64,000 nucleotides of DNA, taken from the NCBI RefSeq assembly GCF_021646545.1, contig NZ_JAKIRP010000003.1, forward strand, positions 496,001-560,000. The letters are read 5' to 3'. The notes beneath the pieces were generated by a model that made no database searches, was not told the origin of the DNA, and saw only the letters and a program-made list of their open reading frames with translations. Numbering within the stretch: the stretch's first letter is position 1; every line of letters starts with the position of its first letter. The stretch is from Chitinophaga filiformis (GTDB taxonomy: Bacteria; Bacteroidota; Bacteroidia; Chitinophagales; Chitinophagaceae). Shown piece by piece: positions 833 to 64,000 of the stretch. Position numbers and translations under genes: made by a program.

Positions 833-880
833 TACAAAAAATTGAAAGGGAGTTTACGAAAAGGGGAAGCATCTCCGGAC

Positions 881-1846: not shown

Positions 1847-1872
1847 ACATGAAGGTTTAGCGATGTTATAAA

Positions 1873-3500: not shown

Positions 3501-6500
3501 TTACTTATCCTTGTCTGTGATGCTTGTTACCACCAATTGCAGGTTCCTGGGCAATGTGATGGCATCATAATGGTCTCCCTGTGTGAACAGATGCGTGAAG
3601 CGGCCGCTGGTATACCGTTCCCAATCTTTCATGTGGAGGAAATCATTATGAATATTCTGTTTGGCCTTAAAGGCGATAATATCTCCTTTTATCTTTCCTT
3701 TCTGTTCATACGCTTCGCTGAGACGGAGATTATGATAGAACAGTTGCTCGAGGTGGTTCCTGTGGGTATCTTCCAGCCCTACATCTGCCAGCCAGTCACG
3801 CAGCCAGTTTACCTCCTGCTGAATGGCATCCCTTGAAAGCTCTATCGACTGTTTACGTTTCTTTTTATCCCTGATGTCTCTGTCCAGGAGCAGCAAAGTG
3901 GTACGTATTCCTTTTTCCTCCAGCATCTTCGCTACTTCGAAGGCAATAGTACCACCGAAAGAGAAACCTGTCAGTACTACTTCCTTTCCTGGTTCATTCT
4001 CCAGTATAGCCGTCGCAAACCGCCTAACCTTTTGTTCGATGGTAGTGTCGAAATCTTTACCATCATCAAAGCCTGCATCCTGTAAACCATAGCAGTTATA
4101 TGTTCCCTGCAGCGCTTTACCCAGTTCCATATATAACAAGGAAGTACCTATCAGGGGCGCAAAGCAATACATACGGGGCAGATCCGGTTCTTTCCTGTTC
4201 AGGCTTAACAAAGTGCCCTTCTGTTCTCCACGTGTATCAGCGAGTGCTAACAGTGATTCAATAGTGGGATGGCCAAGGAAATCGCGCAGTGATAATCTCA
4301 GGTTAAGCTCCTTATTCATCCTTGATACCAGCTGCACCGCCCTCATGGAGTGACCTCCCAGTTCGAAGAAGCTGCTGGTAACACCCACAGCATCCAGGTT
4401 CAATACTTCTGCCCATATTACAGCCATCTGACTTTCCAGTTCATTGCGGGGTGCTACAAATGTTGTAAGACTATCTATTTCCGGCGCTGGCAGCAGGGTC
4501 TTATCTACCTTACCATTGGTGGTCAATGGTACAGCAGGTATCAGTATGAACCATGCAGGTACCATAAATGCAGGTAAGAACCTGCCGATATGCTGTTGCA
4601 GCTCTTTCCGGTCTACTGCTGTTTGTGCTGTATAATAAGCCACCAGGTACTCTTCCTGCTGAAGTGATGTTTTGGTTACGATGGCCTCTTTTATGCCGGG
4701 ATACTTCAGGATGGCAGACGCGATCTCGCCTGGTTCGATACGGAAACCATTCAGTTTGATCTGCTCATCCGCCCGTCCTGTATATTCAATCTCACCTTTA
4801 TGATTCCATCTTCCCTTATCACCACTGCGATATAATTTGCCAGGACCAAAAGGATCAGTAACAAAGCGGGCAGCAGTCAGTTCTTCCCTGTTGAGATAGC
4901 CAATAGCCACGCCTGCGCCACCGATATAGATCTCTCCTTCTACACCTACAGGCTGCAGTTGTTGCAGTTCATCGAGAATATAGATCTGTGCATTATCTAT
5001 AGGCTTACCAATAGTAATATAATCTGCGGATGTTATTTCACTGACTGTACAACCCACCGTTGTTTCCGTCGGACCGTATTCATTGAAGATCCTCATCTGA
5101 GGGTTCAACTCTTTCAGTGTGAGAACATGATCTGGCAGGAGGGCTTCTCCACCTACAATGGCAGTATTGACAGCCGTTTTCTCTAACTGTAGGCTTGCCA
5201 GTACACGTATATGTGCCGGTGTGATCTTTACCGCCGTCAGCCTGTCGTTTGTAAAGACCTCTTTCAGCGCTGCCAGTACATCTTCTTCCGGCGTCAGGCA
5301 TACTTCATCACCACGCAGTAAGCCACTCAGCAGACTGGTAATGGTAAGGTCGAAAGACAATGAAGAGAATACGCCGAATACATGGCCGGTGGTATTGTCA
5401 AAGTAGTGACGGTTAACGAATGTCAGGTAGTTCATCAGAGATGCATGAGAGATCAGCACTCCTTTTGGCATACCTGTAGAACCGGAAGTGTAGATGATGT
5501 ATGCGGGAGCTTCCTGGTTTACAGCTGGCAGTGTTCCGGGCACCGTCTGATCAATATCCTTTACAGCCCCATTCAGTGCCAGTACCCTTCCGCTCCACGG
5601 CCATCCGTCATGATCTGTCATTAACAATGTGGCCGCCGCATCATCGAGAATGTACCTGATCCTGTCTTCAGGCAGGGTACTGTCTATTGGAAGATAGGCG
5701 GCTCCTGTTTTGAGAATAGCCAGTATACTGATAAGCGACCACTCATTCCTGTTGACCATGATCGCCACCACATCTCCCGCTTTTGCCTGGTAGTGTTGTA
5801 TGAGATAAGCAGCCAGTTTATCTGACAAGCTATCTAATGCTGTAAATGTGTACTTTGTCTTACCAGCAATAAGTGCATTCTTGTCAGGATGCATAGCAGC
5901 TACCTTCCTGAAGGCGTCTACAATGGTCACTGAAGGAATATCTGCACTGGTATCATTCAGTGTTGTCAACAGCAGCGTTTCTTCCTGCGCAGGAAGAAAT
6001 TTTATACGGTTCAGCGATAAAGCTGGATATTCTCCTGCATTGATGATCAACTGATATATGTGTTCACAGAGACGGACCATTCTGGCCTCGTCAAACAACA
6101 CTGTACTATACTCCAAGGTCAGTAAAAGATCATCTCCCTGTTTTCTGAAGAAGAATGTGAGATCAAACTTACTGATCTCTGTGGCTACTGATGCTTCTTC
6201 CACAAGCATATCCTGCAGGTTCAACAGGTCTTCTTCCTTCCTGTCTTCATCCTGTAATACCAGCATGACATTGAACAGCGTGCGCTTATTGAGCGGCTTG
6301 TATTCATTCACGGCATCTACCAGCAACTCAAACGGGAATGATATGCGGTCGTAAGCAGCAATAGCATTCGCCTTCACTTCCCTGAGCAAGGCATCAAATC
6401 CACATTCCTCATCAATCCGCGAACGAAGCGCGATGGTATTCAGAAAGAAGCCTATCTGATTTTGCAGATCGGGATGTTCCCTGCCGGTAACAGGCAATCC

Positions 6501-9500: not shown

Positions 9501-12500
9501 CAACAGATTGCCGGCAAAGCCCTCGTCTCCTGTGAGCGTGGTTCTAAGTACCAGGGTGTTCACATACAAGCCTATCTGGTCTTCCAGATCAGGGTGTTCC
9601 CTTCCGGCTACGGGCGTACCGACAACAATGTCTGTTTGCCCCGTATAACGATACAGGAGAGATTTCACGGCCGCCACCAATCCCATGAACAAGGTAGCCT
9701 GCTTACCAGCCACCAGTGACTGTAGTGCTGCCAGCACCTCGGCCGGAATAGTATGGTAATAATTTCCTCCCTCAAAACGCTGTATAGGCGGACGAGGGAA
9801 ATCAGCAGGCAGTTCCAGTACAGGCAGATCTTCCTGCAGCTTACTCCTCCAGTATGCCTGCTGCGCCAATAGTGACGCACTATCACGATTATTGCGCTGC
9901 CAGCTTGTATAATCTTTGTATTGAACAGACAGCACCGGCAAACGAGCCTCTTCCTTGTTCTCCAGCGCCGTATAGATAGTTGTAAGTTCGCGCTTCAGTA
10001 CCTGTAGCGACCATTCATCTGCAATGATGTGATGAATAACCAGCACGAGATAATGATGCGTGTCACTATCACTAAATACAGCGGCCCTTAACAAAGGACC
10101 ATTACTAAGATCAAAAGGCTGGCGGGTGAATGCCGCTATCTTCGCCTGCAGACTGCTATCGGCAGCTTCGCTATGCAAATGGAAACCGGCAGATTGTCTC
10201 ACCATCTGCACCGGCTTACCATCTATAGTATCAAATACGGTACGCAATATTTCATGACGGGCGATGAGGATCCCGAATGCTGCTGCAAGCAACTCCCGGT
10301 CCAGCTTACCCTCGTATTCAAACACCTCTGTGATAGAATACGCCAGGTCAATACCATCAAACTGATGTAATACCCACAGCCGCTGTTGTGCATAAGACAC
10401 AGGGTAATAAGCCGCAGGTGCTGCTGATGGTATGGCTATATATTGTTCACGTTTGGAATGCTGTATGAAGGATGCCAGCGCTTCCAGCGTGGGATGTTTA
10501 AACACATCTTTCAGCGAGATCTTCACAGAAAGGTCTTTATACACCCTGGCTACCAGCTGCATGGCTTTTAATGAATGTCCTCCGCAGGTAAAGAAGTCGT
10601 CCGTTACACTTACCTGTGACAGACCAAGAATATCTCTCCATATTGCTGCGAGTTGTTTCTCCAGCTTGTTACGCGGTGCGATGTACTGGTTTCCGGTGGT
10701 AGTCAGCGGAACGGGTAGTTTTACTTTATCCACCTTTCCGTTGCTGTTCAGCGGCATAGCCTCCAGCTGTACGTACCAATTGGGAACCATGTACTCTGGC
10801 AGGGACTGCGACAAGTATGTCCTCAAATCCGCTGTAGTGATACTATGATCTGCCGTATAGTAGGCCACCAGCTGTTTATCCTCTTTTTGTGTCACTACAG
10901 TAACAAACACTTCCTTCACACCCTCATAAGCAGACAGCGCCTGCGCGATCTCTGCTGTTTCGATACGATAACCGCGGATCTTATGCTGTTCGTCCCTTCT
11001 GCCGGCATATCCTAATTGTCCGTTAAAGTACCAGCGCCCACGGTCGCCACTACGATATAAGAGATGATCGGTTAAGGTATGATGTATAAACTTCCCGGCT
11101 GTAAGCTGTGGTTGCCCGAGATAACCAGCTGCCACCCCGGTACCTCCGATAAAGATCTCACCCTCAATACCTACAGGCGACAACTGCAGCCTGTCGTCCA
11201 GTACGAGGATCTGCGCATTGGCCACAGGTGTTCCTATGTAGATACGGTTGTCGTCCTTCACTTCATAAACAGTACATCCTACTGTCGTTTCTGTAGGACC
11301 ATATTCGTTAAAGATCCTGATATCAGGGTTGAGTTGTCGTAATATCCTGATATGTCCACTATGCAATTCTTCGCCTCCGGCGATGATCGTATGGACTTTG
11401 GTAGCCGTAATATTGAGCAGTTCCAGCGCACTGATATGAGAGGGCGTCAGCTTCACCGCATTTACTACAGCACTGGTGAAAGTTTCAGATAATACCTGTT
11501 CGATGTTCTCTCCGGGGAAGAGCTGCACACTGTCTCCTCTCAGCAATCCTGACAGAAGCCCTGTAATCGTGAGGTCGAAAGATAAGGATGTAAACACACT
11601 GAAAACATTGCCCCGCTGATCATTGAAGTACCAGCTATTGGCCCATAACAGATAATTCAGGAGTGCTTTATGTTGTATAATAACGCCCTTAGGATTGCCG
11701 GTGGAGCCAGATGTATACATTACATAGGCCACATCTTCCGGAGCAACAAGCGGCAAGGGACCGCTCTCCCATTGTGTAATACCTGTGCGGATAGCGGATG
11801 TAGACAGTACCGGCACATCTGCGATAGTGATTTCTTCATCTGCAATCACTAATACCGCCGCAGTGTCTCTGAGAATATAACTGATCCGCTGAACAGGATA
11901 AGTAACATCCATCGGCACATATGCGGCGCCTGCTTTCAAAACGGCCAGTACAGAAACGACCGCCCACTCATTCCGTGGTAAAAGCAACCCAACTATATTA
12001 CCTGGTTTTAAGCCATAATGGCTGATAAGACGCGTAGCCAGACGGTTAGTATAGTCGTCCAGTGTTGAGAAAGACATTTGCCGTTCTTCGCACAATATTG
12101 CAGGAAGGTCTGCCCAGACAGGGCTGCGCAAGCCCAAGAGTGCCGGCAAAGTATCTTTGCTAATCGGTGCTACTGTTTTATTGAATACATGTAACAGTCT
12201 CTCTTTTTCCCCGGCATCCAGGAAATCCGCATCAATAACAGCAGCTCCGCCACATAATTGTTCCAGCAGTTTTCCGAAGTGCCGACCCATGAGCTCAATC
12301 CTTTCTCTTGCGAAGAGATCTGTGTTATATTCCAATGTCAGCGTAATACCATCTCCACGGTCGAGGAACCAGAAGGTAAGATCATATAAGCTGGTAGTAA
12401 CACCCACCCTGTCTTCTTCTACCTGCAGACCATTCATTTGTGGTATAACTTCTTCCGCCTGCATACCCTGTTGCATGACCACTGCCACATCAAAAATGGG

Positions 12501-18743: not shown

Positions 18744-18775
18744 CTGGAATGAAGTTTTGGGAATCTTGCAATATT

Positions 18776-19438
18776 TCAGGGGCGCTGCAGAACGAGTATC
18801 AGCCTGTCAGCCGGCTCTTTTCTGAAATATTTCGGGATAACACGTTGTTCTTTTATGCTAAATCCTGCGGCCAGCGATGCTGCTATCACAGATTCATTAT
18901 CGGAAGGCCGCTTTCCTGAAAAAAGTATGGGCAGGCCATAGTCACAAACATTATTAATAAAAAGATGCCCGCCGGATTTGACCAGTGTAAACAACTCTGC
19001 AAGCAGACTCTTATAGTCTACATAGTTCAGTACCTGGGAAATAATGATATTATCGAATACCTCACCAGCCAACTGCTGTTGCAGATCCTCCGCAAAGGAC
19101 ACTGCATTCATATCAAGATTGAGTAAACGGCAAGCGCCCTGGTCCCGGAGCCATTGTAAGGCATCCCTGTCGTTTTCCAGGAAAGTGATACTTGCTGACG
19201 CTGGCAGCACTTCCCTTAATTCAGGGGAGTATAACAGCGGAGTGAAAAACGGACCAATCTCCAGGATATCACCTTTCAGCTGTCTCCTGTTCTTCAGCAA
19301 ATAGGGGATCAGTCTCCTGCCACCCATTACCATTCTTATCCGGGCGTCCCGATCAAATTCTTCACCAAACCGGTTGTCAGTGAGCGGCCATCCGCTCCAT
19401 TCAACCATATATTTCTCCGGAATTAAAGCGTCGATCAT
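18776..19438 (-). CDS. Class I SAM-dependent methyltransferase
   Basis: A 220-residue protein with a Rossmann-type SAM-binding site: LEIGPFFTP at residues 59-67 as motif I, an acidic residue after the second strand in ITFLEND (Glu88 or Asp90), and VFDNIIISQVLNY at 127-139 as motif IV. The glycine-rich loop is unusual, with GPFFTP instead of GxGxG, but this form occurs in class I enzymes. No membrane segment or leader is seen. The gene sits precisely between the NRPS that ends in an orphan C domain (20 bp away) and the NRPS that begins with an orphan A domain (32 bp away). Inference: it methylates an O, N or C atom of the peptide or a precursor; the target is unknown. Confidence 0.88.
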   Translation of the reverse strand: MIDALIPEKYMVEWSGWPLTDNRFGEEFDRDARIRMVMGGRRLIPYLLKNRRQLKGDILEIGPFFTPLLYSPELREVLPASASITFLENDRDALQWLRDQGACRLLNLDMNAVSFAEDLQQQLAGEVFDNIIISQVLNYVDYKSLLAELFTLVKSGGHLFINNVCDYGLPILFSGKRPSDNESVIAASLAAGFSIKEQRVIPKYFRKEPADRLILVLQRP

Positions 19439-19458
19439 CAGGGTTTCTTTTTGGGTTG

Positions 19459-42070: not shown

Positions 42071-42093
42071 GAACACAAATGGAGTTTCCTTAT

Positions 42094-42684: not shown

Positions 42685-42686
42685 AA

Positions 42687-43406: not shown

Positions 43407-43415
43407 ACTAAAGGG

Positions 43416-45068: not shown

Positions 45069-45089
45069 AAGAATAGTTTTAATAGCGGC

Positions 45090-46967: not shown

Positions 46968-46976
46968 AACAAAAGT

Positions 46977-49064: not shown

Positions 49065-49084
49065 ACTCCTTTTTTTAATTAAGA

Positions 49085-50839: not shown

Positions 50840-50859
50840 GGATGATGATTTTATAATGG

Positions 50860-53800
50860 TTAAAAACCTTTGTCTATAGTAGCGCTGAACATATCAGATT
50901 GTAAGCGTTCTGTTTCGCGCTCTTCTTCTGTCAGATAATTAAGTGCGGTTAACGACAGGCTGGGTTGCGCCGTCACAGCTGCTATCAGCTGTTGCAGATG
51001 GAGTAACATACGCTCAATACGCACCCTGTCATAAATGTCTGTGTTGTATTCTATGCTGCCGCTGATATGTGTGCCCTGGTCTTCAAACTGAAAACGCAGA
51101 TCGCCCTTACTGATACCCGGATCAATTGCAGCGGGTGTGATCAGCACATTGGCCATTTCAGGCAGTGCAGCAGCTTCCACCTGTACGTTCTGGAGTATCA
51201 ATACTACGTCAAACAATGGCGAGCGACTAAGATCTCTGTTCACGCCCAACTCTTCTATCAATCTGTCGAAAGGATACAGCTGGTGATCGAATGCTTCCAA
51301 TGCAGTTTGTTTTACTGCAGAAAGCAGTGCATCAAACCCGCTTTCTCCGTCGATGTTGCTTCTTAGGGCCAGTGTGTTCAGATAGTAGCCGATCTGCCCT
51401 TCGAGGTCCGGATGATCGCGCCCTGCGACAGGCGTTCCTACAATGATATCCTGCTGACCACTGTAACGGAATAGTAACAACTTCACGAGCGACAATAGTC
51501 CCATGAACATCGTTACCTGCTGTTCCCCGAGGAAGGAACGCCACTTGTTACTGATCTCAGCACTCCATTCAAACAGGTATTGCTGTCCGTTGTAGGTCTG
51601 CACTGCCGGTCTCGGTCTGTCAGCCGGTAGTTCCAGCACGGGCAGTGTTCCTCCGAGTTTTGCCAGCCAGTAGCTACGCTGCGCCTTCAGGCGAACACTA
51701 TCCATGGCCGTGGACTGCCAATGTGCATAATCCTTGTATTGCAGGGGTAATGGCGGTAGTGCTACTTCCATACCGGCTACGTAACCGTTGTATAGATTCA
51801 GCACTTCTCTTACCAATATCTGCAGCGACCACTCATCTGCTATAATATGATGGATAGCGAATAAGAGCACATAATCTTCTTCATCGCAATGAAGCAGCCT
51901 TACACGCATTAATGGGCCTTCACTTAGATCGAATGGTGATAAGGCCGCCTGTTTTTTGTACTCCTCTACTATCTCTTCTTTGTCAGTTGCTGCCCTCAGG
52001 TCCTCATATTGAATACTTACATTGGCCTGCGCTAAGATCTTTTGTCTTGGCACTCCGTTATTCAGCACAAATACTGTTCTCAGACTCTCATGCCGCAGTG
52101 CCAGCGTGCTAAATGCCTGCTGCAGCAGGGCCGGGAATAACGTGCCTTCCAGACGGTAACTCATGAATATATTGAACGTGGCCTGTCCTTCCATTTGCTC
52201 TTCCAGTACCCACAAACGCTGTTGTGCATAAGAAAGCGCATAATCTTCCGCTTCGGGCACATGCGCAATTGCCATGTAGGCTGTCTTCAGTGCTCCCAAT
52301 ATCAACCTGGCCTGTCCTGCTACTGTGGGATGTTCAAAGACATCTGCAATGCTCAGCTGTACTTCACACATTTTGTAGATGCGGGATAACAATTGTATAG
52401 CTTTCAGCGAAGATCCTCCCATGGTAAAGAAGGATTCGTTCCTGCCAATAGCTGTCGTGCCCAATATTTGTTCCCAGACGTCTGCCACCAGCCGTTCTAT
52501 ACCGGCGTGGGGCAATTCCCGCTGATGGCTGGCCAATACCAGCTCCGGACGTGGCAGGCGTTTACGGTCTACCTTTCCGTTAATATTCATGGGGAATACT
52601 TCCAGCCAGATATAAGCTGCCGGAAGATGGCTTTGTGGCAGCACATCCGCCAATATCTTTCTTAATGCTTCCGCTTCATACCGCCGGCCGGCATAATAAC
52701 AGATCAGTTCCTGTTCTTCATGCAGGATCAGCTCTGTCTGCGTAATACCTTCCTGCTCCAGAATAACCGAGCGTACGCCGGCAGTTTCTACCCTGACACC
52801 ATGTAACTTCACCTGCTCATCTTTCCTGCCCAACAGTTCAAGGATCCCTCCCGGAAGGTAACGCCCCAGATCTCCTGTTCGCACTACCTGCATGTTCTCT
52901 ACAAAAGGATGCGGTACAAAAATGTCTTTACTTACAGGTGACAGATAACCTTTGGTGATGAAGGGGCTGCTGATATACACCTCTCCTATTTCTCCTTCCT
53001 GGCAGTAATGATTATTGTTCAACACAGCGACAGCAGTATGCGTGATAGGCTGCCCTACAGGAATAACAGCGCCTGGTGCAATGCCGGTTTCCGGTATATG
53101 ATAAAAAGTCTTTAATACAGTGGTTTCTGTCAGGCCGTATAGATTGGATACTTTGGCAGCTGCGCCATGTAGCGCTCTCCAGTTGATCACATCTCTGCCA
53201 TACAAACGTTCTCCTGCCAGTATCACCTGCCGGATAGCAGGTAATGGCCCTTGCAGGCTGGCTGTGATCAGGCGGAATAGTGATGGAACGGTTTGCAGTA
53301 TGGTGATATTGTTGTCAGATAACCATGCTCCCAGTAGCTCCATCTGTGGACGGATAGCCGGTGATGGTATGTGTAATGTAGCCCCTGTCATCAATGCAGG
53401 GAAAATATCTTTTAAAGAAGCATCGAATGTTACCGGCGCCAGCTGACTGATATGGTCATTCACCCCAATATTGAAAGCGGCGGCATGCCAGTGTGCATAG
53501 TGGCTGATACTTCCCTGACTTCCTATGATGCCCTTTGGCATTCCTGTAGAACCGGAGGTATAGTATACATAGGCAGACATATCAGCAGTAACATGCGCGG
53601 ATACTGTTATAGCTGTTTTCTCCAACGCTGATGGCACCAGTATCTCAGCGGTATGGCCGCTTTGCTGCAATATTGCTTCCCAGACAGACACCTGTTCCCT
53701 GTCTGTAATCAGTATGGCAGGTGCAGCCTCTTTCAGTATATAAGTCAATTGTTGTATTGGCATTGCAGCATCCATCGGCAGATATATCATACCGGCTTTA

Positions 53801-56800
53801 AAACATGCCAGCAAACTACTTACCTGTGTTATACCTGCTTTCAATGCAACGGCTACCGTTGATTGTATAGCTGTACGCTGCCCCAGGTGGGCTGCCAACG
53901 CCGTATAACGCGCTGTCAGTTCTTCGTAACTAATGGCGCCCTCTCCATCCATGATCGCTATTTTATCCGGCTGTTGTACTGCCTGTGCTGCAATAACATC
54001 TGTCAGCAGCGGATACACAGGCGCTGATATCCGTGCATTGAATGATGCCGCGTGTGATTCATCATCTCTGTAAGCCAGCGAGGAGACCGGCGCTTCCGGC
54101 GACTGAAGGGCCAATACCAGTAACGCCTGCAGGTCTTTAATGATCTGCACTATGCGTTCCCTGTCGAACAGGTCTGTGCTATACTCAATATTACCGCTGA
54201 TATATCCTTCTTCTTCCGCAAAGAGGAATCGCAGATCACCTTTACTTGTTTTCAGTTCCCCTGGCAGCGGAACAACGTCCAGTCCTTCGATTTCCAGTGC
54301 ATCCAATGGCTCCAGGCGGATGTTCTGTAGTATCATCACCACATCAAAAACAGGGTTCCGGCTTACATCTTCTCCTGCTCCCAATATTTCCACCAGTCTG
54401 TCAAACGGATACACCTGGTGTTCAAACCCAGCTGTGGCTGTTTGCTTCACCTGTTGCAGCAACACATTGAATCCGGCATCGCCGTCCACGTGAGTGCGTA
54501 ATGCCAGTGTATTAAGATAATAGCCGATCTGGTCTTCGAGGTCTGCATGATCTCTTCCTGCTACCGGCGTTCCGATTATAATATCACGCTCCCCGCTGTA
54601 CCGGTATAAGAGGGCCTTCACCAGCGATAATAATCCCATGAATAGTGTAGCCTGGTTCTCCTTTACATATTGCCTTAATGCAGCACTGCTTTCTTCAGAA
54701 AAACGGAATGTCAGCTGTTCTCCACTGAAGGAAGGCCTTGCCGGTCTTGGTCTGTCGGCCGGTAAAGTGAGCTGTGGCAAAGTTCCACTTAACTGTTGCA
54801 ACCAGTACTGCTCATGTGCAGCCAGGCGCTCACCGGTCAGTTCCTGCGCCTGCCATAGCGTATAATCTTTGTATTGAATACGCAAGGGCGTCAGCGGATC
54901 AGCGTCCCCCTTCACGCCGGCATTATAGCTGGTCAGCAGATCTTTTATTAACACCTGCATAGACCATTCATCTGAAATAATATGATGCAATACCAACAGC
55001 AATACGTGTTCCTCTGCCCCTGTCTGCAGCAACGATACCCGCAGCAGCGGTCCCTGGTCCAGCACAAACTTATGTTCTCCTGCCAGGCGGATACGCGTGA
55101 TTATCTCTTCGTCCTGTTGTTGCACACCCTGCAGATCTTCATACGCGATGCGGCAATCAGCCTCCAGTATCTGCTGCATGGGAGTACCTTCACGGGTGAC
55201 GAATATCGTCCGCAGACTTTCATGTCTCGCCACTACTGCTGCAAACGCTGCTTCCAGTACATCCCGTCTCAACTGACCAATGATGCGGTAAACCTCCATG
55301 CCATTAAATGCCTGTACATCCCCTAAGCGCAATGTCTGCAGCCATAAGCGCTGCTGTGCGTGTGATAGTGGGTAGTATGCAGCTTCCGGTGCCACAGGAA
55401 TTTCCCTGAACTGCTGTTGCTGCACCTGATCAATCAGGGCTGCCAGGCTTGCCAGTATAGTATTGCCGAAAATATCCCCGATGGATAACTGGGCGCCAAA
55501 CTCACGGTATATTCTTGTGATCAGCTGGATAGCTTTCAGTGAATGGCCGCCGGATAAAAAGAAATCGCTGGAAAAGCCAATATCGCCTCGTTGTAATATC
55601 TCTTTCCAGATAACCAGCAGGCGCTGTTCTGTTACTGTTCCTCCTGTTTCTTCGGCTGCTACCGGCTGATCGGTGGGAACCGGTAAATGCCGGTAGCTGA
55701 TCTTACCACTGCTGTTTAGCGGTAAGGCTTCCAGGTGTATGAACCTGGAGGGTATCATATACTCCGGTAAACTTCTTGCCAGGAACTGCCGTAATACAAG
55801 ACCGTCAATCGCATTCTGAGCCGCATAATAGGCCAAAAGATACTTATCGTCACCCGAAGTCCTCACAACAACAGCAACGCCGTTAATGCCCGGGAAAAGG
55901 GACAATGCCTGCGCTATCTCATCCTTCTCTATCCTGAAACCGCGGATCTTGACCTGATTGTCGATACGTCCGCTGAACTGCAGATTACCATCCGGCAGCC
56001 AGCGGCCTTTATCTCCCGTTCTATACAGCAAGCCACTGCCAAAAGGATTGTCAATAAATTTATCTGTTGTCAACTCCGGACGGTCAAGGTATCCGGCCGA
56101 CAGACCAGCACCCGCAATACACAGTTCACCGTCTACACCCACCGGCTGGATGGCGGATGCGGCATTTAATACATACACCTGTACGTTACTGACAGGCTGG
56201 CCAATCGGCAGGGCGCGCCTGCCGGTATCAGATGCACTCACTTTGTACAAGGTGGTACATACTGTATTCTCGGTAGGTCCATAGCCATTATAGCAAGTGG
56301 TATATGCAGCGGCCCGTACTAAAGCTTCCACCGGCGCCACATCTCCTGCGGTGATCATGAAACGCAATGCAGACAACCTTTCCGGTGGCAGCAAAGCCGC
56401 AAAAGCAGACGGGAATACAGCTGCAGTGATACTTGTTGCGGTGATATAGTCTAAAAGCTGCTCTGCACTCTTTACGGTATTCTCTTCCGGTATTACCAAT
56501 ACGCCACCTCCACATATTGCCATAAAGGTTTCGAAAACGGCGCCATCAAAAGAGAAGGAAGAGAACAACAACACCTTGTCTTCTCTGCCGACTGTTAAGA
56601 TGTGTTGCTGGTTGAATACCATGTTTACAGCGCTGCTATGCCCGATCTTTACGCCTTTCGGCTGACCTGTAGATCCGGATGTATAAATAATATAAGCCAG
56701 GTCATTTGCTGCTACGGCAACTGCCGGATTTTCCAGCGGCAGGTCTGCATTATACAGTTCGATATCCATGACTACCAGCGATCCGCTGAAATAATCAATA

Positions 56801-59800
56801 TCAAACATGAAAGCAGATTCTGTCAGCAATATTTTCGCGCCTGCATCTTCCAGCATAAAGCGGATACGGTCTTTCGGAAGTTGACTGTCTACCGGCAGAT
56901 AAGCCAATCCGGCTTTCAGGGCGCCCAATAAGCCAATGATCTGCCACTCATTCCGGCCGGGCATAATGGCCGCAATGTTTCCTTTTTCCACATGATGTGT
57001 ATCGAGGAGCAGTCTTGCCAACTGGTTTGCACGCTCATTCAATGTGCGATAGCTGCAAGTCCATCCCGGACCTTCCAATGCAATAGCATCCGGATGAAGC
57101 TCTGCCTGCTCTTCGAAAAGATCTATCAGTGTTTCCTTTGTCGGGAAAATAACGGTTGTATCGTTGAAAGATGCCAGCAGGTCCTGCTCAACATCAGATA
57201 AGAGCTCAAATGTCTGAAGGCTCTTTTCCGGAGCCGACAAGACCGACGTCAGGAGCTGCTGCAGGTGAGTAGTCATCCGCTGTATGCGGTCAGGATTGTA
57301 TAGGTCAGAATTATACTCGAGTGTCAATCCGATACCGGAAGCTGTATCCGTAAAGAAGAAGCGCAGGTCGATCTTACTCACCGGTAATTGTATAAACGCG
57401 TCTTCAACATGTAAGCCCGGCATTGCAGGCAGTGGTTGTTCACTGGTATTATCCAGTACTACCACCACATCAAACAGTGGCGCTCTGCTCATATCCCGCT
57501 CCAGGTCCAGCTCATCTACCAGCATATCGAATGGATATACCTGGTGCGAATACGCTTCAAGCGCGGCCTGTTTTACCTGCTGCAATAATCTGCGGAAACT
57601 TTCCCTCCCATCAAACTGAGAGCGCAACACCAGGGTGTTAATAAAAAATCCTATCTGGTGTTCCAGGTCAGGATGCTCGCGTCCCGCCGACGGCGATCCG
57701 ATAATAATATCTTCCTGTCCTGTATAACGGTATAATAACGTTTTTACCAATGTCACCAATCCCATGAAGAGCGAAGCGCCTTCTGAAGCTGCCAGTTCTT
57801 TCAGACCATTACTTAATGTTTCCGGCAATTTAATATATACTTGTCCGCCGTTATAGGTCTGCACAGGAGGTCTTGGATGATCAACGGGCAGGTCGAGCAC
57901 CGGAATGTCTCCTTCAAACCGGTTCAGCCAGTATGCACGGTGTTGCTGCACCTTCTCTCCTGTCAGCTCCGTTTCCTGCCATGCCGCGTAGTCTTTATAT
58001 TGTCCTTTCAGTAACGGTAAGTCGTATGGTGTTCCTGTAAGCGCTGCGTTATATACTGCAATCAGCTCTTCCAGTATAACGCGTAATGAGCGTTCATCTG
58101 AAATAATATGGTGCATGGACAATACGAACAGGTATACCTCATCTGCTGTCTGCATCAATTTCGCTTTCATTAACGGACCATTCTTCAGATCAAATGGTTC
58201 GAGGGCCAGTTGCATCGCTGCGGTTCTAGCCTGCTCTTCCGCCTGCGGGTGATCTCGCAGATCTTCCAGCTGCAATGCAAATCCGCTTTCTGCTGCTGTC
58301 CGTATACGCTGCATGGGTACGCCGTCCACCACTTCAAAGACGGTGCGCAGACTTTCGTGACGTTCTATCAAAGTATTGAATGCTGTTGTCAATGCATCCC
58401 GATCCAGCTGACCTTCCAGCCGGTAGCATACCGGCAGGTTATAAGCAATAGAACCTTCCGGTTCAAACTGGTCCAGCACCCATAGTCTACGCTGTGCATG
58501 CGACAACTTATAGTACTTCTGTGCAGCCACTCGACTGATGGGCGAATAACTGCCTGCCTGTGTCCTGTCAATCTCTGCTGCCAGATCAGACAATACCGGG
58601 TACAGGAAAAGGTCTTTCAATTCTATTCTTATACCCAGCTGTTTATATAAGCGGGTTACTACCTGTATACCCTTCAGGGAATGTCCACCTGCATCAAAGA
58701 AATGATGCTTTGTACCCAGTTGCTCATTCCCCAGTATCTCTTTCCATATTTCCAGTAATACAGCTTCTGTCGGTGTTACAGGTTGTTCAACCGCTACCTC
58801 TATATCGGCCTGTGGCGCTTTCAGTGCTTTACGGTCAATCTTACCACTGTTGTTCATCCTAAATTGCTCCACCTGTACAAAGTACGATGGCAGCATATAC
58901 TCAGGTAAAAACTGTTGCAGGTGAGTACGCAGTGTAGCGCTTGTTATAGTGCCTGTTGCTGTGTAATAGGCCGCCAGGTATTTATCCGCATCACTGCCAA
59001 AAGCCTTTACTACCGCAGCGCTGACACCCGGATAGCTTAACAGTGCCTGTTCCACTTCTCCGGTTTCAATTCGATAACCTCTGATCTTTACCTGGTCATC
59101 CAGTCGTCCGGTGAAATCAATGTTACCATCGGTCAGCCAGCGTCCTGTATCACCTGTTCTATATAAAAATCCCTCTCCATAAGGGTCTTTGATAAATTTC
59201 GTCGCTGACAGCATTTCATTATTGTAATATCCCATGGCTACGCCCGCGCCTGCAATGCATATTTCACCGCTGATGCCTACAGGCAACAACTGCTGTAGTT
59301 CATCCAGTATATACACACGTACATTATGCACAGGTTTTCCTATGGGCAGTTTGCCCAGGCCTGCGTCTGCAGAGGTTACCTGGTAAGAGCTGGCCCATAC
59401 TGTAGCTTCTGTAGGACCATAACAGTTATAGTAATCAGCGAAAGCGGCACATGCAACTGCTGTAGGCACATGTGCAACATCACCAGCTGTAATGATCTTT
59501 CGCAGGAAATGCAGTTTGGTAATATCCAACGCTGTCAGATAAGAGACTGGTAATATCACAACTGTAACGCCTGCTGCTTCCATGTATTCCGTTACCCTGG
59601 CGCCATCCCTCCCTAAGGCAGCAGGAATCAACACAAGCGTTGCTGCGGCAGCAAAGGCCATAAAGATCTCTGCTACGGAAGCATCGAAAGAAGGAGATGC
59701 AAACTGCAATACCCTGTCGGTTGTGGTAGTACCAAAAACTGACAGTTCGTTATGCACCATATTCACCACACCGGCATGATTGATCATTACCCCTTTGGGC

Positions 59801-62800
59801 TTACCGGTTGAACCGGAGGTATAGATAATGTATGCCAGATCGGACGGGCCGGAAAGTGGCGGCAGATTATCTTCGCTTTTGGGTAATTCGGGTATTTCAA
59901 TATCGGCGACCAGCAATTGTCCGGTGAAATAGGTTACATCCAGCAGATAGTCTGATATTGTTATGAGTAATGGTAAGCCAGTATCGTCTATAATATACCT
60001 GATCCTTTCAACAGGGTAAGACGCATCGATCGGTACATAGGCGCCTCCTGCTTTCAATACACCAAGAATGGAAATAATCAGCCACTCCTGCTGACCAGCC
60101 ATTACACCAACAGGTGTACCCGGCTCAACGCCATGTTGCTGCCGCAATACTTTTGCCAGGCGATTGGCTTTCTCATTCAGGGCCTTGTATGTCATCGACC
60201 TGTCGCCCGATACAAGTGCTATGGCATCCGGCGATTGCTTCACCTTCGTTTCAAAAAGATCTGCCAGTGTCAGGCCTTGTGGGTAGGCGAATTCTGTTTT
60301 GTTAAATACCGACAATATCTGCGTACGTTCTGCTTCAGGCAGCATGTTCAACCTTGCCAGTTCCGTTTCGGGATCACGGGCCACTGCTATCATGAGGCTT
60401 TCCAGGTGCTGCATCATGCGTAGCATACGGTCTTCATCATACAATTCCTTACTATATTCCAGCTTCAGATAAAGTCCTTCGCTGGTTTCCCGGAATGTAA
60501 AATGCAGGTCAACCTTGCTCAGCCCAGGCTTCAGTACCACTTCAGTGATCTCTATATCATTCATCTCAGGATACAGATCTTCAGCGGTATTCTCCAAAGT
60601 GATCACAATGTCGAACAATGGCGCACGGCTGATATCGCGTTCCAGTCCCAGTTCATCCACCAGCATATCAAAAGGATATGCCTGATGTGCATAGGCACTG
60701 AAGGCGGTTTCCCTTAGTTCCCACAGATACTGACGGAAGGGAGTCCTGCCACCGGGATAAGAGCGCAAAGGCAGAATGTTCAGATAATAGCCGATCTGAT
60801 TCTCCAGGTCTGTATGGTCCCTGCCAGCTACCGGCGTACCTACAATAATGTCTTCCTGTCCGCTGTACCGGAATAACAGGGTTTTCACCAAGGCCGTAAG
60901 CAGTATAAAACGCGTGGCTTGCTCCTGTCGGCACAAAAGATCCAGGCCACTGATACCTTCCTGGTTAAATTGATAAGTGACCTGCCCGCCACTGTAATGC
61001 TGTACCACCGGCCTTAGCCTATCTGCCGGCAATTCCAGCTTGGGTAATGTACCACCCAGCTGTTCTTTCCAATATTTCCTGTGGAGCATGAGCTGCGCAT
61101 CGTTCAGCGCCTCCAGCTGCCATGCAGCATAGTCTTTATAATGTATCCTTAAGGATGGTAGCGGTGTAACGCTTCCCTGCCGGAAGCTGTTATAGTAATA
61201 CAACAGTTCACGTATCAGCAGGCGGATAGACCATTCGTCTGCTATGATATGATGTATACATAAAAAGAATAACCTTTCGTCATCTGCTGTTTGCAATAAG
61301 TGCACCCGCAGCAATGGAGCGTCAGACAAATCAAATGGCTGTAATGCCAGTTCCAATGCTCTTGTTTCAGCAGCCCTCCGTGCATCCTGCGCTCCACGAA
61401 GGTCTTCTCTGACGATTGTAAAGGCGAGATGCTCTATTGAGATAATCTCCTGCACCGGATTATCGCCTCTCATTACAAAGCGCGTACGCAGGCTCTCATG
61501 ACGGGCCAGCAATGTGTTGAAAGCATTCTTCAATGCCACTTCGTGCAATGGGCCATTAAAGTAGTAGCTCATTGGCAGATTGTATAACACTGCATTACCT
61601 TCCAGCTGATGTAACAGCCATAATCTGCGTTGTGCGTGTGACAAGGGATAATATTCCTGCGACGCCACTTCCGGAATATGCGTATATGCACTGTGGTCTG
61701 CCTTTTTTACTGCTGCAGCAAATGCGCTTAATACGGGATAGCGGAACAGGTCTTTTAACTCCGCCCTGATCTGAAGGTCTCTGTATATTCTCGCAATCAC
61801 TTGTATGGCCTTCAGTGAATGACCACCCAGGTGAAAGAAATTATCTGTTACACTCAAAGTATCCACACCCAATATCTCCTGCCATATGGCGGCGATGCTA
61901 CGCTCTGCTTTTGTTACCGGTGCCACATATTCCCGCGTATCATGCAATTCCGGCAGTGGTAACGCCTTTCTATCAATTTTTCCATTCGCATTCACAGGCA
62001 ATTGTTCCAGCTGTACAAATGCAGATGGTATCATGTATGCCGGCAGGAATGCAGAAAGGTAATTATGTAACGCTGCCGTATCTATTTTTACAGATGCGAC
62101 GAAATAAGCCACCAGCTTTTGCTCCCTGTCAACAGTTTTCAACACTACCACAGCCTGTAAGATGCCTTCGTATTGGTTGATCTGTTCTGCGATCTCTCCT
62201 GTCTCTACACGATACCCTCTGATCTTCACCTGCTCATCTTCCCTGCCTGAGAAATACAATACACCGTCAAAGCCAATGGCACATTTGTCGCCCGTGCGGT
62301 ACAATACGCCTTCTGCTATTGATGGTATTTCAATAAACTTCTCTGCCGTTAGTGCCGGTCGCTTCCAGTAACCATCTGACAGCCCTGCGCCACCTATAAA
62401 AAGATTGCCCGGTACACCTGCAGGCACCGGCATAAAATGATCGTCCAGCAGGTAAATATTTGTATTCGCAACAGGTCTTCCCAGGGGAATAACAGCATCG
62501 GCAGCTGTTACTTTATGAGCGGCAGACCATATTGTTGTTTCTGTAGGACCATACACATTCCATACTTCTGCAGCTGCACCCAATAACTGAACAGCCAGTG
62601 TGCGGCTAAGCGCTTCACCGCCACACAACAACTTCATACCATTGTGACCACTCCAGCCATGCTCAAATAAGAGACTCCATAGTGAGGGTGTTGCCTGCAT
62701 GATGGTTGGTTGTTGTGCATGGATCATTTCCTGTAAGAGGAATGGCGTGTTTACAACATCATTTGCTGCGAGGATGACGGTTGCTCCATTAAGCAAGGGC

Positions 62801-64000
62801 AGGAATAACTCAAGTACAGAAATATCAAATGAATAAGTAGTTACCGCCAGCAACCTGTCGCTGCTCGTCACTTCCAGCATAGCAGTCATGCTATGCAGTA
62901 GATTGATGACTGCCTTATTAGGCACCAATACGCCTTTAGGAGTGCCGGTTGACCCGGAAGTATACATCATATAGGCCAGACTATCGCCACTGGCTGCTAT
63001 TGGTGGATTGTCCACCAGTAAGGTATACGGCGCCTTAAATACGTCCGGCATATATACAGTTGTACATGCATCCTCTTCCTCCTGCCGGTCCGTCAGTATT
63101 ATCTGCGTGTCACTGTCTTTCAACATATAGGATATCCTTGCTTCCGGCAGTGAAGGATCTACCGGCAAATAGCCGGCGCCGGTTTTCAGAATACCCAGTA
63201 TTCCCGGTAGCAGGTATTCATTTCTATCCGTCTTCAGGGCAATAACGTCTCCCGGCACAATTCTATGCTGCAGTAGCAGGTAATTTGCCAACTGGTTGGC
63301 CCTTACATTCAGGTCATGGTATGACCAGGTCTCATTGCCCATCACAAGCGCTTTCTGATCGGGTGCCCGTTGTACCTGTTCTTCAAATAAGGAGATCAAT
63401 GTACCTGCAGCGGGGTATGGCAGCTGCGCTCCTGTCAGCTGTTGCTGTATCCACTCCGATTCCGTGGCAGACAGATAACTGATCTTGTTCAGCGGCTTCC
63501 GGCTGTCAGCCAGTATGTTCGCCAGTAGTTGCAGCAGATGATCACATGCATTTGTGATCCGCTGTGCTGCAAATACGTCTGTATTATATTCCAGTGTGAG
63601 CTTCACTGTCTCGCCGACATGTGAGAACCAGAAAGTGAGATCGTACAGACTTGTGTGCACGGGCATACCGATCTGTGATACCTGTACACCTTGCATTGCA
63701 GGCGTCTGCAGTGCGGTCTGTTCTTCCCGGTAGATAATGGCTACGTCGAATACCGGTGAGCGGCTCATATCTCTTTGCAACTGCAGCTGATCTACCAACA
63801 GGTCAAAAGGATACACCTCATGGGCATACAATGCCAGCGCATGTTCTTTGATCTGTTGCAGTAAAGGCACAAAACCATGGTCGCCGTTTATGTGGCTTCT
63901 CAATGGTAACGTATTCAGATAAAAACCTATCTGCTGCTCAAGGCCTGCTCCGCTTCTGCCGGCGACTGGTATACCGGTGATAATATCTTCCTGTCCCGAA
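50860..64000 (-). CDS. NRPS, at least four modules, ends in an unpaired C domain (5' end beyond window)
   Basis: The reading frame is open to the right edge, so the N-terminus is missing. A TTG codon at 63901-63903 lies inside a C domain and is not the start. Visible order: partial C, A, T, then three C-A-T modules, then a final C domain and the stop at 50860. Pockets read by eye: D-I-L-Q-L-G-V-I-W (Gly), D-A-A-I-I-A-C-V-W and D-G-F-A-I-A-G-V-C (both with an ITAGD core as in GrsA-type aromatic or hydrophobic domains; unassigned), and D-A-K-Q-I-A-L-V-L. The four complete C domains read HHxxxDEWS, except the third domain (second complete one), which has HHIISDERS. There is no epimerisation domain. 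The tail ends in ATIDKGF. The partial first C domain resembles module 3 of the TE protein (SLYDLTFWF), suggesting that a D-A-K-type module precedes it. Confidence 0.95.
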   Translation of the reverse strand, partial: SGQEDIITGIPVAGRSGAGLEQQIGFYLNTLPLRSHINGDHGFVPLLQQIKEHALALYAHEVYPFDLLVDQLQLQRDMSRSPVFDVAIIYREEQTALQTPAMQGVQVSQIGMPVHTSLYDLTFWFSHVGETVKLTLEYNTDVFAAQRITNACDHLLQLLANILADSRKPLNKISYLSATESEWIQQQLTGAQLPYPAAGTLISLFEEQVQRAPDQKALVMGNETWSYHDLNVRANQLANYLLLQHRIVPGDVIALKTDRNEYLLPGILGILKTGAGYLPVDPSLPEARISYMLKDSDTQIILTDRQEEEDACTTVYMPDVFKAPYTLLVDNPPIAASGDSLAYMMYTSGSTGTPKGVLVPNKAVINLLHSMTAMLEVTSSDRLLAVTTYSFDISVLELFLPLLNGATVILAANDVVNTPFLLQEMIHAQQPTIMQATPSLWSLLFEHGWSGHNGMKLLCGGEALSRTLAVQLLGAAAEVWNVYGPTETTIWSAAHKVTAADAVIPLGRPVANTNIYLLDDHFMPVPAGVPGNLFIGGAGLSDGYWKRPALTAEKFIEIPSIAEGVLYRTGDKCAIGFDGVLYFSGREDEQVKIRGYRVETGEIAEQINQYEGILQAVVVLKTVDREQKLVAYFVASVKIDTAALHNYLSAFLPAYMIPSAFVQLEQLPVNANGKIDRKALPLPELHDTREYVAPVTKAERSIAAIWQEILGVDTLSVTDNFFHLGGHSLKAIQVIARIYRDLQIRAELKDLFRYPVLSAFAAAVKKADHSAYTHIPEVASQEYYPLSHAQRRLWLLHQLEGNAVLYNLPMSYYFNGPLHEVALKNAFNTLLARHESLRTRFVMRGDNPVQEIISIEHLAFTIVREDLRGAQDARRAAETRALELALQPFDLSDAPLLRVHLLQTADDERLFFLCIHHIIADEWSIRLLIRELLYYYNSFRQGSVTPLPSLRIHYKDYAAWQLEALNDAQLMLHRKYWKEQLGGTLPKLELPADRLRPVVQHYSGGQVTYQFNQEGISGLDLLCRQEQATRFILLTALVKTLLFRYSGQEDIIVGTPVAGRDHTDLENQIGYYLNILPLRSYPGGRTPFRQYLWELRETAFSAYAHQAYPFDMLVDELGLERDISRAPLFDIVITLENTAEDLYPEMNDIEITEVVLKPGLSKVDLHFTFRETSEGLYLKLEYSKELYDEDRMLRMMQHLESLMIAVARDPETELARLNMLPEAERTQILSVFNKTEFAYPQGLTLADLFETKVKQSPDAIALVSGDRSMTYKALNEKANRLAKVLRQQHGVEPGTPVGVMAGQQEWLIISILGVLKAGGAYVPIDASYPVERIRYIIDDTGLPLLITISDYLLDVTYFTGQLLVADIEIPELPKSEDNLPPLSGPSDLAYIIYTSGSTGKPKGVMINHAGVVNMVHNELSVFGTTTTDRVLQFASPSFDASVAEIFMAFAAAATLVLIPAALGRDGARVTEYMEAAGVTVVILPVSYLTALDITKLHFLRKIITAGDVAHVPTAVACAAFADYYNCYGPTEATVWASSYQVTSADAGLGKLPIGKPVHNVRVYILDELQQLLPVGISGEICIAGAGVAMGYYNNEMLSATKFIKDPYGEGFLYRTGDTGRWLTDGNIDFTGRLDDQVKIRGYRIETGEVEQALLSYPGVSAAVVKAFGSDADKYLAAYYTATGTITSATLRTHLQQFLPEYMLPSYFVQVEQFRMNNSGKIDRKALKAPQADIEVAVEQPVTPTEAVLLEIWKEILGNEQLGTKHHFFDAGGHSLKGIQVVTRLYKQLGIRIELKDLFLYPVLSDLAAEIDRTQAGSYSPISRVAAQKYYKLSHAQRRLWVLDQFEPEGSIAYNLPVCYRLEGQLDRDALTTAFNTLIERHESLRTVFEVVDGVPMQRIRTAAESGFALQLEDLRDHPQAEEQARTAAMQLALEPFDLKNGPLMKAKLMQTADEVYLFVLSMHHIISDERSLRVILEELIAVYNAALTGTPYDLPLLKGQYKDYAAWQETELTGEKVQQHRAYWLNRFEGDIPVLDLPVDHPRPPVQTYNGGQVYIKLPETLSNGLKELAASEGASLFMGLVTLVKTLLYRYTGQEDIIIGSPSAGREHPDLEHQIGFFINTLVLRSQFDGRESFRRLLQQVKQAALEAYSHQVYPFDMLVDELDLERDMSRAPLFDVVVVLDNTSEQPLPAMPGLHVEDAFIQLPVSKIDLRFFFTDTASGIGLTLEYNSDLYNPDRIQRMTTHLQQLLTSVLSAPEKSLQTFELLSDVEQDLLASFNDTTVIFPTKETLIDLFEEQAELHPDAIALEGPGWTCSYRTLNERANQLARLLLDTHHVEKGNIAAIMPGRNEWQIIGLLGALKAGLAYLPVDSQLPKDRIRFMLEDAGAKILLTESAFMFDIDYFSGSLVVMDIELYNADLPLENPAVAVAANDLAYIIYTSGSTGQPKGVKIGHSSAVNMVFNQQHILTVGREDKVLLFSSFSFDGAVFETFMAICGGGVLVIPEENTVKSAEQLLDYITATSITAAVFPSAFAALLPPERLSALRFMITAGDVAPVEALVRAAAYTTCYNGYGPTENTVCTTLYKVSASDTGRRALPIGQPVSNVQVYVLNAASAIQPVGVDGELCIAGAGLSAGYLDRPELTTDKFIDNPFGSGLLYRTGDKGRWLPDGNLQFSGRIDNQVKIRGFRIEKDEIAQALSLFPGINGVAVVVRTSGDDKYLLAYYAAQNAIDGLVLRQFLARSLPEYMIPSRFIHLEALPLNSSGKISYRHLPVPTDQPVAAEETGGTVTEQRLLVIWKEILQRGDIGFSSDFFLSGGHSLKAIQLITRIYREFGAQLSIGDIFGNTILASLAALIDQVQQQQFREIPVAPEAAYYPLSHAQQRLWLQTLRLGDVQAFNGMEVYRIIGQLRRDVLEAAFAAVVARHESLRTIFVTREGTPMQQILEADCRIAYEDLQGVQQQDEEIITRIRLAGEHKFVLDQGPLLRVSLLQTGAEEHVLLLVLHHIISDEWSMQVLIKDLLTSYNAGVKGDADPLTPLRIQYKDYTLWQAQELTGERLAAHEQYWLQQLSGTLPQLTLPADRPRPARPSFSGEQLTFRFSEESSAALRQYVKENQATLFMGLLSLVKALLYRYSGERDIIIGTPVAGRDHADLEDQIGYYLNTLALRTHVDGDAGFNVLLQQVKQTATAGFEHQVYPFDRLVEILGAGEDVSRNPVFDVVMILQNIRLEPLDALEIEGLDVVPLPGELKTSKGDLRFLFAEEEGYISGNIEYSTDLFDRERIVQIIKDLQALLVLALQSPEAPVSSLAYRDDESHAASFNARISAPVYPLLTDVIAAQAVQQPDKIAIMDGEGAISYEELTARYTALAAHLGQRTAIQSTVAVALKAGITQVSSLLACFKAGMIYLPMDAAMPIQQLTYILKEAAPAILITDREQVSVWEAILQQSGHTAEILVPSALEKTAITVSAHVTADMSAYVYYTSGSTGMPKGIIGSQGSISHYAHWHAAAFNIGVNDHISQLAPVTFDASLKDIFPALMTGATLHIPSPAIRPQMELLGAWLSDNNITILQTVPSLFRLITASLQGPLPAIRQVILAGERLYGRDVINWRALHGAAAKVSNLYGLTETTVLKTFYHIPETGIAPGAVIPVGQPITHTAVAVLNNNHYCQEGEIGEVYISSPFITKGYLSPVSKDIFVPHPFVENMQVVRTGDLGRYLPGGILELLGRKDEQVKLHGVRVETAGVRSVILEQEGITQTELILHEEQELICYYAGRRYEAEALRKILADVLPQSHLPAAYIWLEVFPMNINGKVDRKRLPRPELVLASHQRELPHAGIERLVADVWEQILGTTAIGRNESFFTMGGSSLKAIQLLSRIYKMCEVQLSIADVFEHPTVAGQARLILGALKTAYMAIAHVPEAEDYALSYAQQRLWVLEEQMEGQATFNIFMSYRLEGTLFPALLQQAFSTLALRHESLRTVFVLNNGVPRQKILAQANVSIQYEDLRAATDKEEIVEEYKKQAALSPFDLSEGPLMRVRLLHCDEEDYVLLFAIHHIIADEWSLQILVREVLNLYNGYVAGMEVALPPLPLQYKDYAHWQSTAMDSVRLKAQRSYWLAKLGGTLPVLELPADRPRPAVQTYNGQQYLFEWSAEISNKWRSFLGEQQVTMFMGLLSLVKLLLFRYSGQQDIIVGTPVAGRDHPDLEGQIGYYLNTLALRSNIDGESGFDALLSAVKQTALEAFDHQLYPFDRLIEELGVNRDLSRSPLFDVVLILQNVQVEAAALPEMANVLITPAAIDPGISKGDLRFQFEDQGTHISGSIEYNTDIYDRVRIERMLLHLQQLIAAVTAQPSLSLTALNYLTEEERETERLQSDMFSATIDKGF
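50863..52245 (-). other. Orphan C-terminal condensation domain of the right-edge protein
   Basis: A complete C domain with LSYAQQRLW, HHIIADEWS, YPFDRLIEELG and SKGDLRFQF, then a short tail and a stop where an A domain should follow. Its SKGDLRFQF segment predicts a D-A-K-type partner A domain on another protein; the N-terminal A domain of the TE protein fits. Confidence 0.85.
52246..55378 (-). other. NRPS module C-A-T of the right-edge protein, D-A-K pocket class
   Basis: FDASLKDIF, ILQTVPSLF, VILAGE and NLYGLTETTVL give D-A-K-Q-I-A-L-V-L, a conservative variant of the class. It is preceded by a C domain with SKGDLRFLF and followed by a carrier with GGSSLKA, so the three-part signature holds here too. 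Confidence 0.8.
55379..58516 (-). other. NRPS module C-A-T of the right-edge protein, specificity unassigned, variant C motif
   Basis: FDGAVFETF, AVFPSAFA, MITAGD and NGYGPTENTVC give D-G-F-A-I-A-G-V-C, with no close match that I know. The C domain has HHIISDERS, the only one in the window with Arg at that place, but keeps the catalytic second His. Confidence 0.6.
58517..61654 (-). other. NRPS module C-A-T of the right-edge protein, specificity unassigned
   Basis: FDASVAEIF, VVILPVSYL, IITAGD and NCYGPTEATVW give D-A-A-I-I-A-C-V-W. Ala at 301 with an ITAGD core is typical of Phe-like domains such as GrsA, so an aromatic or large hydrophobic residue is a weak guess. In the C domain, QATRFILLTALVK replaces the usual xATLFMGLVxLVK. 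Confidence 0.6.
61655..64000 (-). other. NRPS module (partial C)-A-T of the right-edge protein, predicted Gly
   Basis: FDISVLELF, IMQATPSLW, LLCGGE and NVYGPTETTIW give D-I-L-Q-L-G-V-I-W, one position from the established Gly code. The first visible residues (SGQEDIITGIPVAGR) are about two thirds into a C domain, so its active-site motif is outside the window. Confidence 0.8.

Follow-up and report, generated by a model that had tools for sequence, protein, structure and literature searches.

Two synthetases of the Chitinophaga filiformis locus analyzed here have been described as ending in an unpaired condensation (C) domain. This raises the question of whether nonribosomal peptide synthetase (NRPS) modules are cut between C and the adenylation (A) domain that follows it and, if so, in what order the proteins act. 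According to published work, the docking domains that connect NRPS proteins typically lie between modules (PMC8362031). The window, the whole 64,000-nucleotide stretch that was analyzed, corresponds to C23:496001-560000, C23 being its contig in the genome G000. A preliminary description made from these letters alone counted two C-ending proteins and one A-first protein, and proposed that the NRPS running off the right edge also starts with an A domain.

Domain layout of the five synthetases

Domains were mapped with HMMs built from the window's own domains and checked against Pfam. All five NRPS genes, and all features given below in window numbering, lie on the reverse (-) strand, in the gene order right-edge, loading, one-module, two-module and TE. 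The right-edge NRPS (50860-64000 in its window part) has the layout A*-T-C-A-T-C-A-T-C-A-T-C-A*-T-C, where A* denotes an A subtype described below. Its gene extends to position 66708 (C23:562708), 2,708 bases past the window, and HMM mapping and Pfam give the whole protein as A-T-(C-A-T)x4-C. The open reading frame is called from a GTG at C23:562780; the orthologues begin at MIKELIHTVF, and the start was therefore placed at C23:562708, about 21 residues ahead of the A domain. The gene thus opens with A-T followed by the partial C domain seen at the window edge, as had been predicted, with no extra C-A-T module, docking domain or loading domain at its N terminus. Pfam returned only AMP-binding, PP-binding and Condensation matches for the first 1,082 residues, with no TubC_N docking domain (PF18563).

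The two-module NRPS (19459-27591; HMM mapping, Pfam) is arranged as TubC_N-C-A*-T-C-A*-T-C. The terminal (TE) NRPS (3501-18743), A*-T-C-A*-T-C-A-T-C-A-T-C-A-T-TE by the same methods, does open directly with an A domain, which begins at residue 21, and ends in a thioesterase domain (3537-4175, Pfam); neither half of the protein gave a Pfam match to TubC_N (PF18563). The loading NRPS (30947-42076; HMM mapping, Pfam, NCBIfam) is FAAL-like-T-C-A-T-C-A-T-C-A-T, and the one-module NRPS (27588-30950; Pfam, HMM mapping) is TubC_N-C-A-T. Together the proteins hold 16 C domains, 16 amino-acid A domains, one FAAL-like domain and one terminal TE, i.e., ordered C-A-T modules with one initiating and one releasing domain. 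The predicted count of 16 residues (3+1+2+5+5) is correct, the 17th adenylation-type domain being the FAAL-like one. By HMM mapping, no T of the five proteins is followed by a second C-type domain, and hence there is no sign of epimerization (E) domains.

Two C-ending proteins are therefore matched by two A-first proteins, and contig C23 encodes no other A-first NRPS protein apart from the loading protein, treated below: all 16 Condensation and all 17 AMP-binding matches on the contig fall inside the five genes, and no NRPS domain was found in the flanks that were read (C23:480001-497000 and C23:565001-585000). Docking domains at T|C boundaries are present from loading to one-module to two-module, as TubC_N domains at 30792-30944 (one-module) and 27433-27585 (two-module; both Pfam), and absent at both C|A junctions. 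The C-terminal tails KIDEILL of the loading protein (30947-30970) and KTDEIIL of the one-module protein (27588-27611), which have comparable counterparts in relatives, are the likely partners of these TubC_N domains.

The loading protein is a third A-first protein, since its first domain (40454-41992) is of adenylation type. This domain carries LPLTHDMGLI, and thus the HDMGL motif of FAAL starters, at the position of the amino-acid-binding Asp of A domains. Its best NCBIfam match is the fatty acyl-AMP ligase model NF006624 (4e-106, 355.6 bits, the cut-off of 600 being unreached), which outranks the amino-acid A model TIGR01733 (116.2 bits). Such a FAAL-like domain should start a chain rather than accept one from an orphan C domain, and the loading protein is the likely initiator of the line, judged by its domain content.

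Several features of the surroundings are recorded here. Tailoring genes identified with Pfam occupy 42094-50839, 18776-19438 and 2-3471; they encode carbamoyltransferase, asparagine synthase, ABC transporter, type II thioesterase, methyltransferase, CmlA-type and TauD-type proteins, and one methyltransferase gene sits between the two-module and TE genes. A radical SAM protein is encoded at the left edge of the window. The product of 46977-49064 is SGNH-like by eye and has matches in 4 of 244 family genomes, including its own; this gene also led to G085 and G209, which were rejected as sources of orthologous lines within the parts read, two G085 regions and a single G209 contig. The gene for a NusG-like protein (PF02357; C23:565685-566197, L032 685-1197) lies upstream of the NRPS genes and of a gene for an FtsX-type permease; the protein may be an antiterminator for the very long operon. 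Two consecutive C-A-T modules of the loading protein (34118-40117) are near-copies with C domains 86% identical, a recent module-sized duplication. The assembly contains the left part of the cluster, from window position 1 to about 38600, twice, on C22 and on C23. From C22:1 onwards C22 is C23 reversed: the first 9.6 kb are 99.86% identical, and C23:250001-251500 matches C22:283136-284635 at 100%. Extrapolated from these two points, the overlap is about 534 kb and looks like unmerged contigs, not two clusters; it would match the assembly's contamination value of 6.22%.

Orphan C domains and the A* acceptor class

That both the two-module and right-edge proteins end in a full C domain (19522-20850 and 50923-52245, respectively) was confirmed by HMM mapping, Pfam, motif and tree. 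The C motif is present in both (HHIISDEWS, HHIIADEWS), and both cluster among C domains in the tree. A model of the right-edge orphan domain (mean pLDDT 87.8) has condensation domains as its nearest solved folds, the best being 2jgp. Motif, tree and the fold of the right-edge domain rule out an E domain at these positions. Sequence error or frameshift was likewise rejected as the source of the splits, since the same C|A boundaries recur in orthologous clusters and in distant genera. HHxxxD is intact in all 18 aligned terminal C domains from Kordia, Flavobacterium and Chitinophaga.

Which acceptors the orphan C domains serve was addressed with a quick tree of C domains from the window and its relatives. 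It kept 150 domains from 170; the rows excluded were near-copies (from G309, from other G286 genes and from the second region of G316), a row derived from a broken K. algicida ORF, and any row containing stretches of X. One clade of 50 (SH-aLRT 89, under the starred level) comprises every C domain that precedes A* within a protein (32/32) and every orphan C domain of the A*-type clusters (18/18), both from the window included, and none of 83 other C domains (82 before other A domains, one before T). Where A* precedes a C domain but Gly or Asn follows it, the C domain falls outside this clade, indicating that the C class goes with the acceptor. A separate clade holds the other orphan C domains (16 of 34), which come exclusively from the DxRH-type clusters of G285, G276 and G316. 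The four C domains of the two-module homologue in G286 scarcely differ from one another.

The A* subtype accounts for six A domains out of 16, namely the pair in the two-module protein, the first and last of the right-edge protein, and the first two of the TE protein. Both free acceptors (right-edge and TE) thus begin with A*; the loading protein does not. FDASLKDI is common to the A* domains, as are the pocket letters DAKQ(V/I)A(M/L)(I/V)L. Lys or Arg at the third pocket position presumably indicates an acidic residue as the predicted substrate. Against the alpha-aminoadipate model TIGR03443, the three A* domains tested scored 175-205 bits and one DxRH-type domain 252 bits, compared with 140 bits for one ordinary A domain of the cluster and a score short of the 1e-40 limit used for another; all are far under the model's cut-off of 1030 bits. 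By score A* domains thus appear similar to Lys2-type A domains, but the A* proteins have no reductase domain. A literature search did not find the Lys2 pocket-code string. Lys2-like A domains are protein-initial in 38 cases and fused in 38, against 24 initial and 187 fused for other A domains, a comparison biased by loci that were largely fetched through Lys2-like A domains; 6 of the 24 other initial domains are of the DVRH type of G316. Reading head-to-tail pairing from an A* tree was tried and gave no signal, because A* copies are homogenised within genomes.

Recurrence of the cut and its tails and heads

The A-first start of the right-edge protein has its closest named matches in Chitinophaga sp. 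CF418 (94% identity) and C. ginsengisoli (93%). A-first proteins with the same type of head were found at 16 of 71 loci (L051-L064, L068 and L074; loci, not clusters), from nine organisms: the two just named, a Chitinophagaceae MAG, Flavobacterium sp. ENC, F. sp. LC2016-23, F. circumlabens, Kordia algicida, K. aestuariivivens and Agaribacillus aureus. The MAG and Agaribacillus showed heads but no tails. The best match to the A* alignment was 1e-190 or better in 8 of 79 genomes sampled within the genus; across the phylum, where three candidates were scored for each genome, 3 of 395 reached 1e-100, own genome included in both counts. The C|A cut, with a tail of almost constant length, mostly ending in Phe or Tyr, and a short head, is repeated in Chitinophaga, Kordia and Flavobacterium. 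It is, as far as sequence can tell, a recurring division in some Bacteroidota and not a single-cluster oddity. K. aestuariivivens has right-edge (5), loading (3), fused one- plus two-module (3) and TE (5) proteins, again 16 modules similarly arranged, with pocket codes that differ in part from those of the window cluster; G244 has 18 A domains besides the starter. Whereas the window proteins are multi-unit, single A-T-C proteins occur in G275, G286, G276, G285 and G316, and in G275 and G286 the right-edge equivalent is one A*-T-C protein. At L145/L146 (G316:C4:199651-222771) six single A-T-C proteins are followed by an A-T protein, with the pocket DVRH(L/F)ALLA throughout, possibly a line of single exchange-unit-like proteins whose product is perhaps a run of one residue. 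Outside Bacteroidota, in a Holophagae-named MAG (L073, around 9800-9966), neighbouring proteins have a C-last tail (MELDDDF) and an A-first head (NRKLLHRVL) of the kind described here, and the A domain carries FDACFKDI.

A C-A split joined by zippers has been presented as a new architecture, in which zipper-less subunits are reported to have given no detectable product (PMC8362031), and a natural cut at this point should therefore need a docking device. In A*-type clusters the orphan C domains carry tails that reach 20-23 residues beyond the C model. The right-edge protein ends in IDKGF before its stop (50860-50877) and the two-module protein in DIDESY (19459-19479), proposed donor docking motifs of an F and a Y class; in general form the putative donor motif is I/L-D/S-x-x-F/Y. 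Phe or Tyr is the last residue of 27 of 38 distinct tails after a terminal C domain and of 21 of 288 other ORF ends, a descriptive contrast, as the tails are distinct yet related, some come from unrelated genes and the control ends include mechanical ORFs. The 11 exceptions include two two-module tails (G244, G286) and 4 of 9 in G285 and G276; in G285, G276 and G316 together, 12 of 16 tails end in Phe or Tyr. In the right-edge C model the tail is helical up to residue 464 and its final five residues are loose.

On the acceptor side, the TE protein begins with the head MSKSFIHSVIENKAALLKDK (18684-18743), a proposed acceptor docking element that continues into the first A-domain helix; the short N-terminal acceptor motif would be roughly M-x-K/R-x-hydrophobic-I/L-H/Y. 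An AlphaFold model of an A-first head, weak (mean pLDDT 68.7, six rows), places a helix from residue 6. Intact linkers in Kordia read NWFEKPIQKVQPQYIHKSFE, and Flavobacterium heads read MIKKYIHKSFED. The cut seems to fall near the start of the first A-domain helix, leaving the linker on the C side. These recurring motifs are put forward as a docking pair: tails and heads would bind, and particular tails would pair with particular heads.

Proposed assembly order and relation to known systems

We consider it probable that the five proteins form a linear line for an acylated peptide of 16 residues. Synthesis would begin on the loading protein, whose FAAL-like domain would activate a fatty or other carboxylic acid, and the TubC_N domains and short C-terminal tails would pass the chain from loading to one-module to two-module protein. 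The final C domain of the two-module protein would then join the chain to the residue carried by the first T domain of another protein, one that is A-first, such that an orphan C and the next protein's initial A*-T make up one complete module in trans. The parts are compatible with transfer from two-module to right-edge to TE protein. The order put forward earlier (loading, one-module, two-module, right-edge, TE) is thus supported, provided that each protein is used once; its two-module to right-edge to TE portion is what we infer. Single use of each protein, like the product itself, is a prediction from the domain content.

In six A*-type clusters (own, G259, K. aestuariivivens, G275, G244 and G286) the right-edge gene leads the NRPS genes, and the last of them ahead of the TE gene is the two-module gene. 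Gene order therefore does not put the right-edge protein between the two, and the chain could instead by-pass it: the two-module protein would deliver its chain straight to the TE protein, making 11 residues, and a separate chain would begin on the first A-T of the right-edge protein and also end on TE (10 residues), yielding two products or a switch. An artificial A-first subunit from a C|A split is reported to have made peptides alone (PMC8362031), and here both heads and both tails share one general type. We nevertheless regard this arrangement as unlikely. The right-edge protein opens with an A* domain, the class before which C domains of the orphan-C clade stand. All six lineages have right-edge tails with a final F, whereas the two-module tail has a final Y in own, Kordia, Flavobacterium and G275 and a final D in G244 and G286, a difference that suggests separate addresses. 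In Chitinophaga G285, G276 and G316, moreover, A-T-C proteins come after a C-last protein in the gene order, in chains broken by intergenic gaps of up to 5.7 kb, so that A-first/C-last proteins look like relays, not initiators.

The general type shared by the right-edge protein's own tail and head would also fit repeated use, in which the tail passes the chain to the head of another right-edge copy and products of 16, 21 ... residues result; with the single A*-T-C proteins of G275 and G286, runs of one residue would be made. The difference in tail class between the donors speaks against this, and we think it very improbable. The loading protein also begins with an A-type domain, and so a collinear route from right-edge to loading, one-module, two-module and TE protein (17 residues) had to be weighed. 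It matches the gene order, but the FAAL-like domain would supply no amine and the right-edge orphan C belongs to the A*-preceding class; on both counts this route is disfavored, and we give it hardly any credence. Least probable of all, though NRPSs can contain unused domains, is that the terminal C domains are vestigial and chain transfer depends on T-to-C steps alone, given their intact HHxxxD motifs (18/18) and right-edge and TE proteins that would be left with no evident means of receiving a chain.

The linear 16-residue order, with its two C|A junctions, invites comparison with engineered systems. In exchange units (XU) and type S NRPSs, too, the division falls at C|A and A-T-C units are joined non-covalently (PMC8362031, PMC10443035); engineers cut at this point since A-T-C units recombine well. 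The proteins described here likewise break in the C-A linker and carry A-T-C units as separate proteins. Full yield is reported to have been regained after ten native linker residues were returned to the upstream protein (PMC10443035), and the linker of the window cluster seems to stay on the C side too. Type S NRPSs, as described in these sources, use engineered coiled coils, whereas the window cut is natural, has short native tails and heads and involves a special A subtype. It differs as well from the TubC_N (PF18563) boundary, which is T|C, occurs on the one- and two-module proteins and was not found at the A-first starts. SyrB1/SyrE of syringomycin likewise place C and A of one module on different proteins; SyrB1, however, is a lone A-T whose residue is shuttled to a T in cis (PMC8949500), while in the window cluster the chain itself would move to the next protein's T. 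The chitinopeptin synthetases, also from Chitinophaga, are large NRPSs for lipopeptides of 14-16 residues with a metallo-beta-lactamase-fold beta-hydroxylase, but they are described with embedded E domains and a C-starter or PKS start (PMC9248904), in contrast to the FAAL-like start and the lack of any E domain seen here. In a literature search that covered few subscription journals, and whose silence is thus weak evidence, no natural NRPS line cut at C|A was found; the split modules that it turned up were engineered splits, SyrB1/SyrE and one PKS split module.

In our reading, the C|A cut is a natural junction between proteins, placed where engineered exchange-unit and type S NRPSs are split. 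New in this analysis are the placement of the orphan C domains in the A*-preceding clade, the repetition of the cut across genera, the 16 modules of K. aestuariivivens and the relay-like A-first/C-last proteins. On balance we lean slightly towards a broader view, in which the C|A boundary would be a dedicated and ancient junction class of Bacteroidota, with a single hint of it in the Holophagae-named MAG, linked to a lineage of Lys2-like A domains and worked by tails and heads, with A-T-C proteins acting as natural exchange units, i.e., relays that can be inserted, lengthened or shortened. If this is true, these clusters would offer native short docking motifs for the engineered split point, and A-T-C would be suggested as a unit used by evolution. 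Prediction tools that ignore C-last/A-first pairs may misorder or truncate such peptides.
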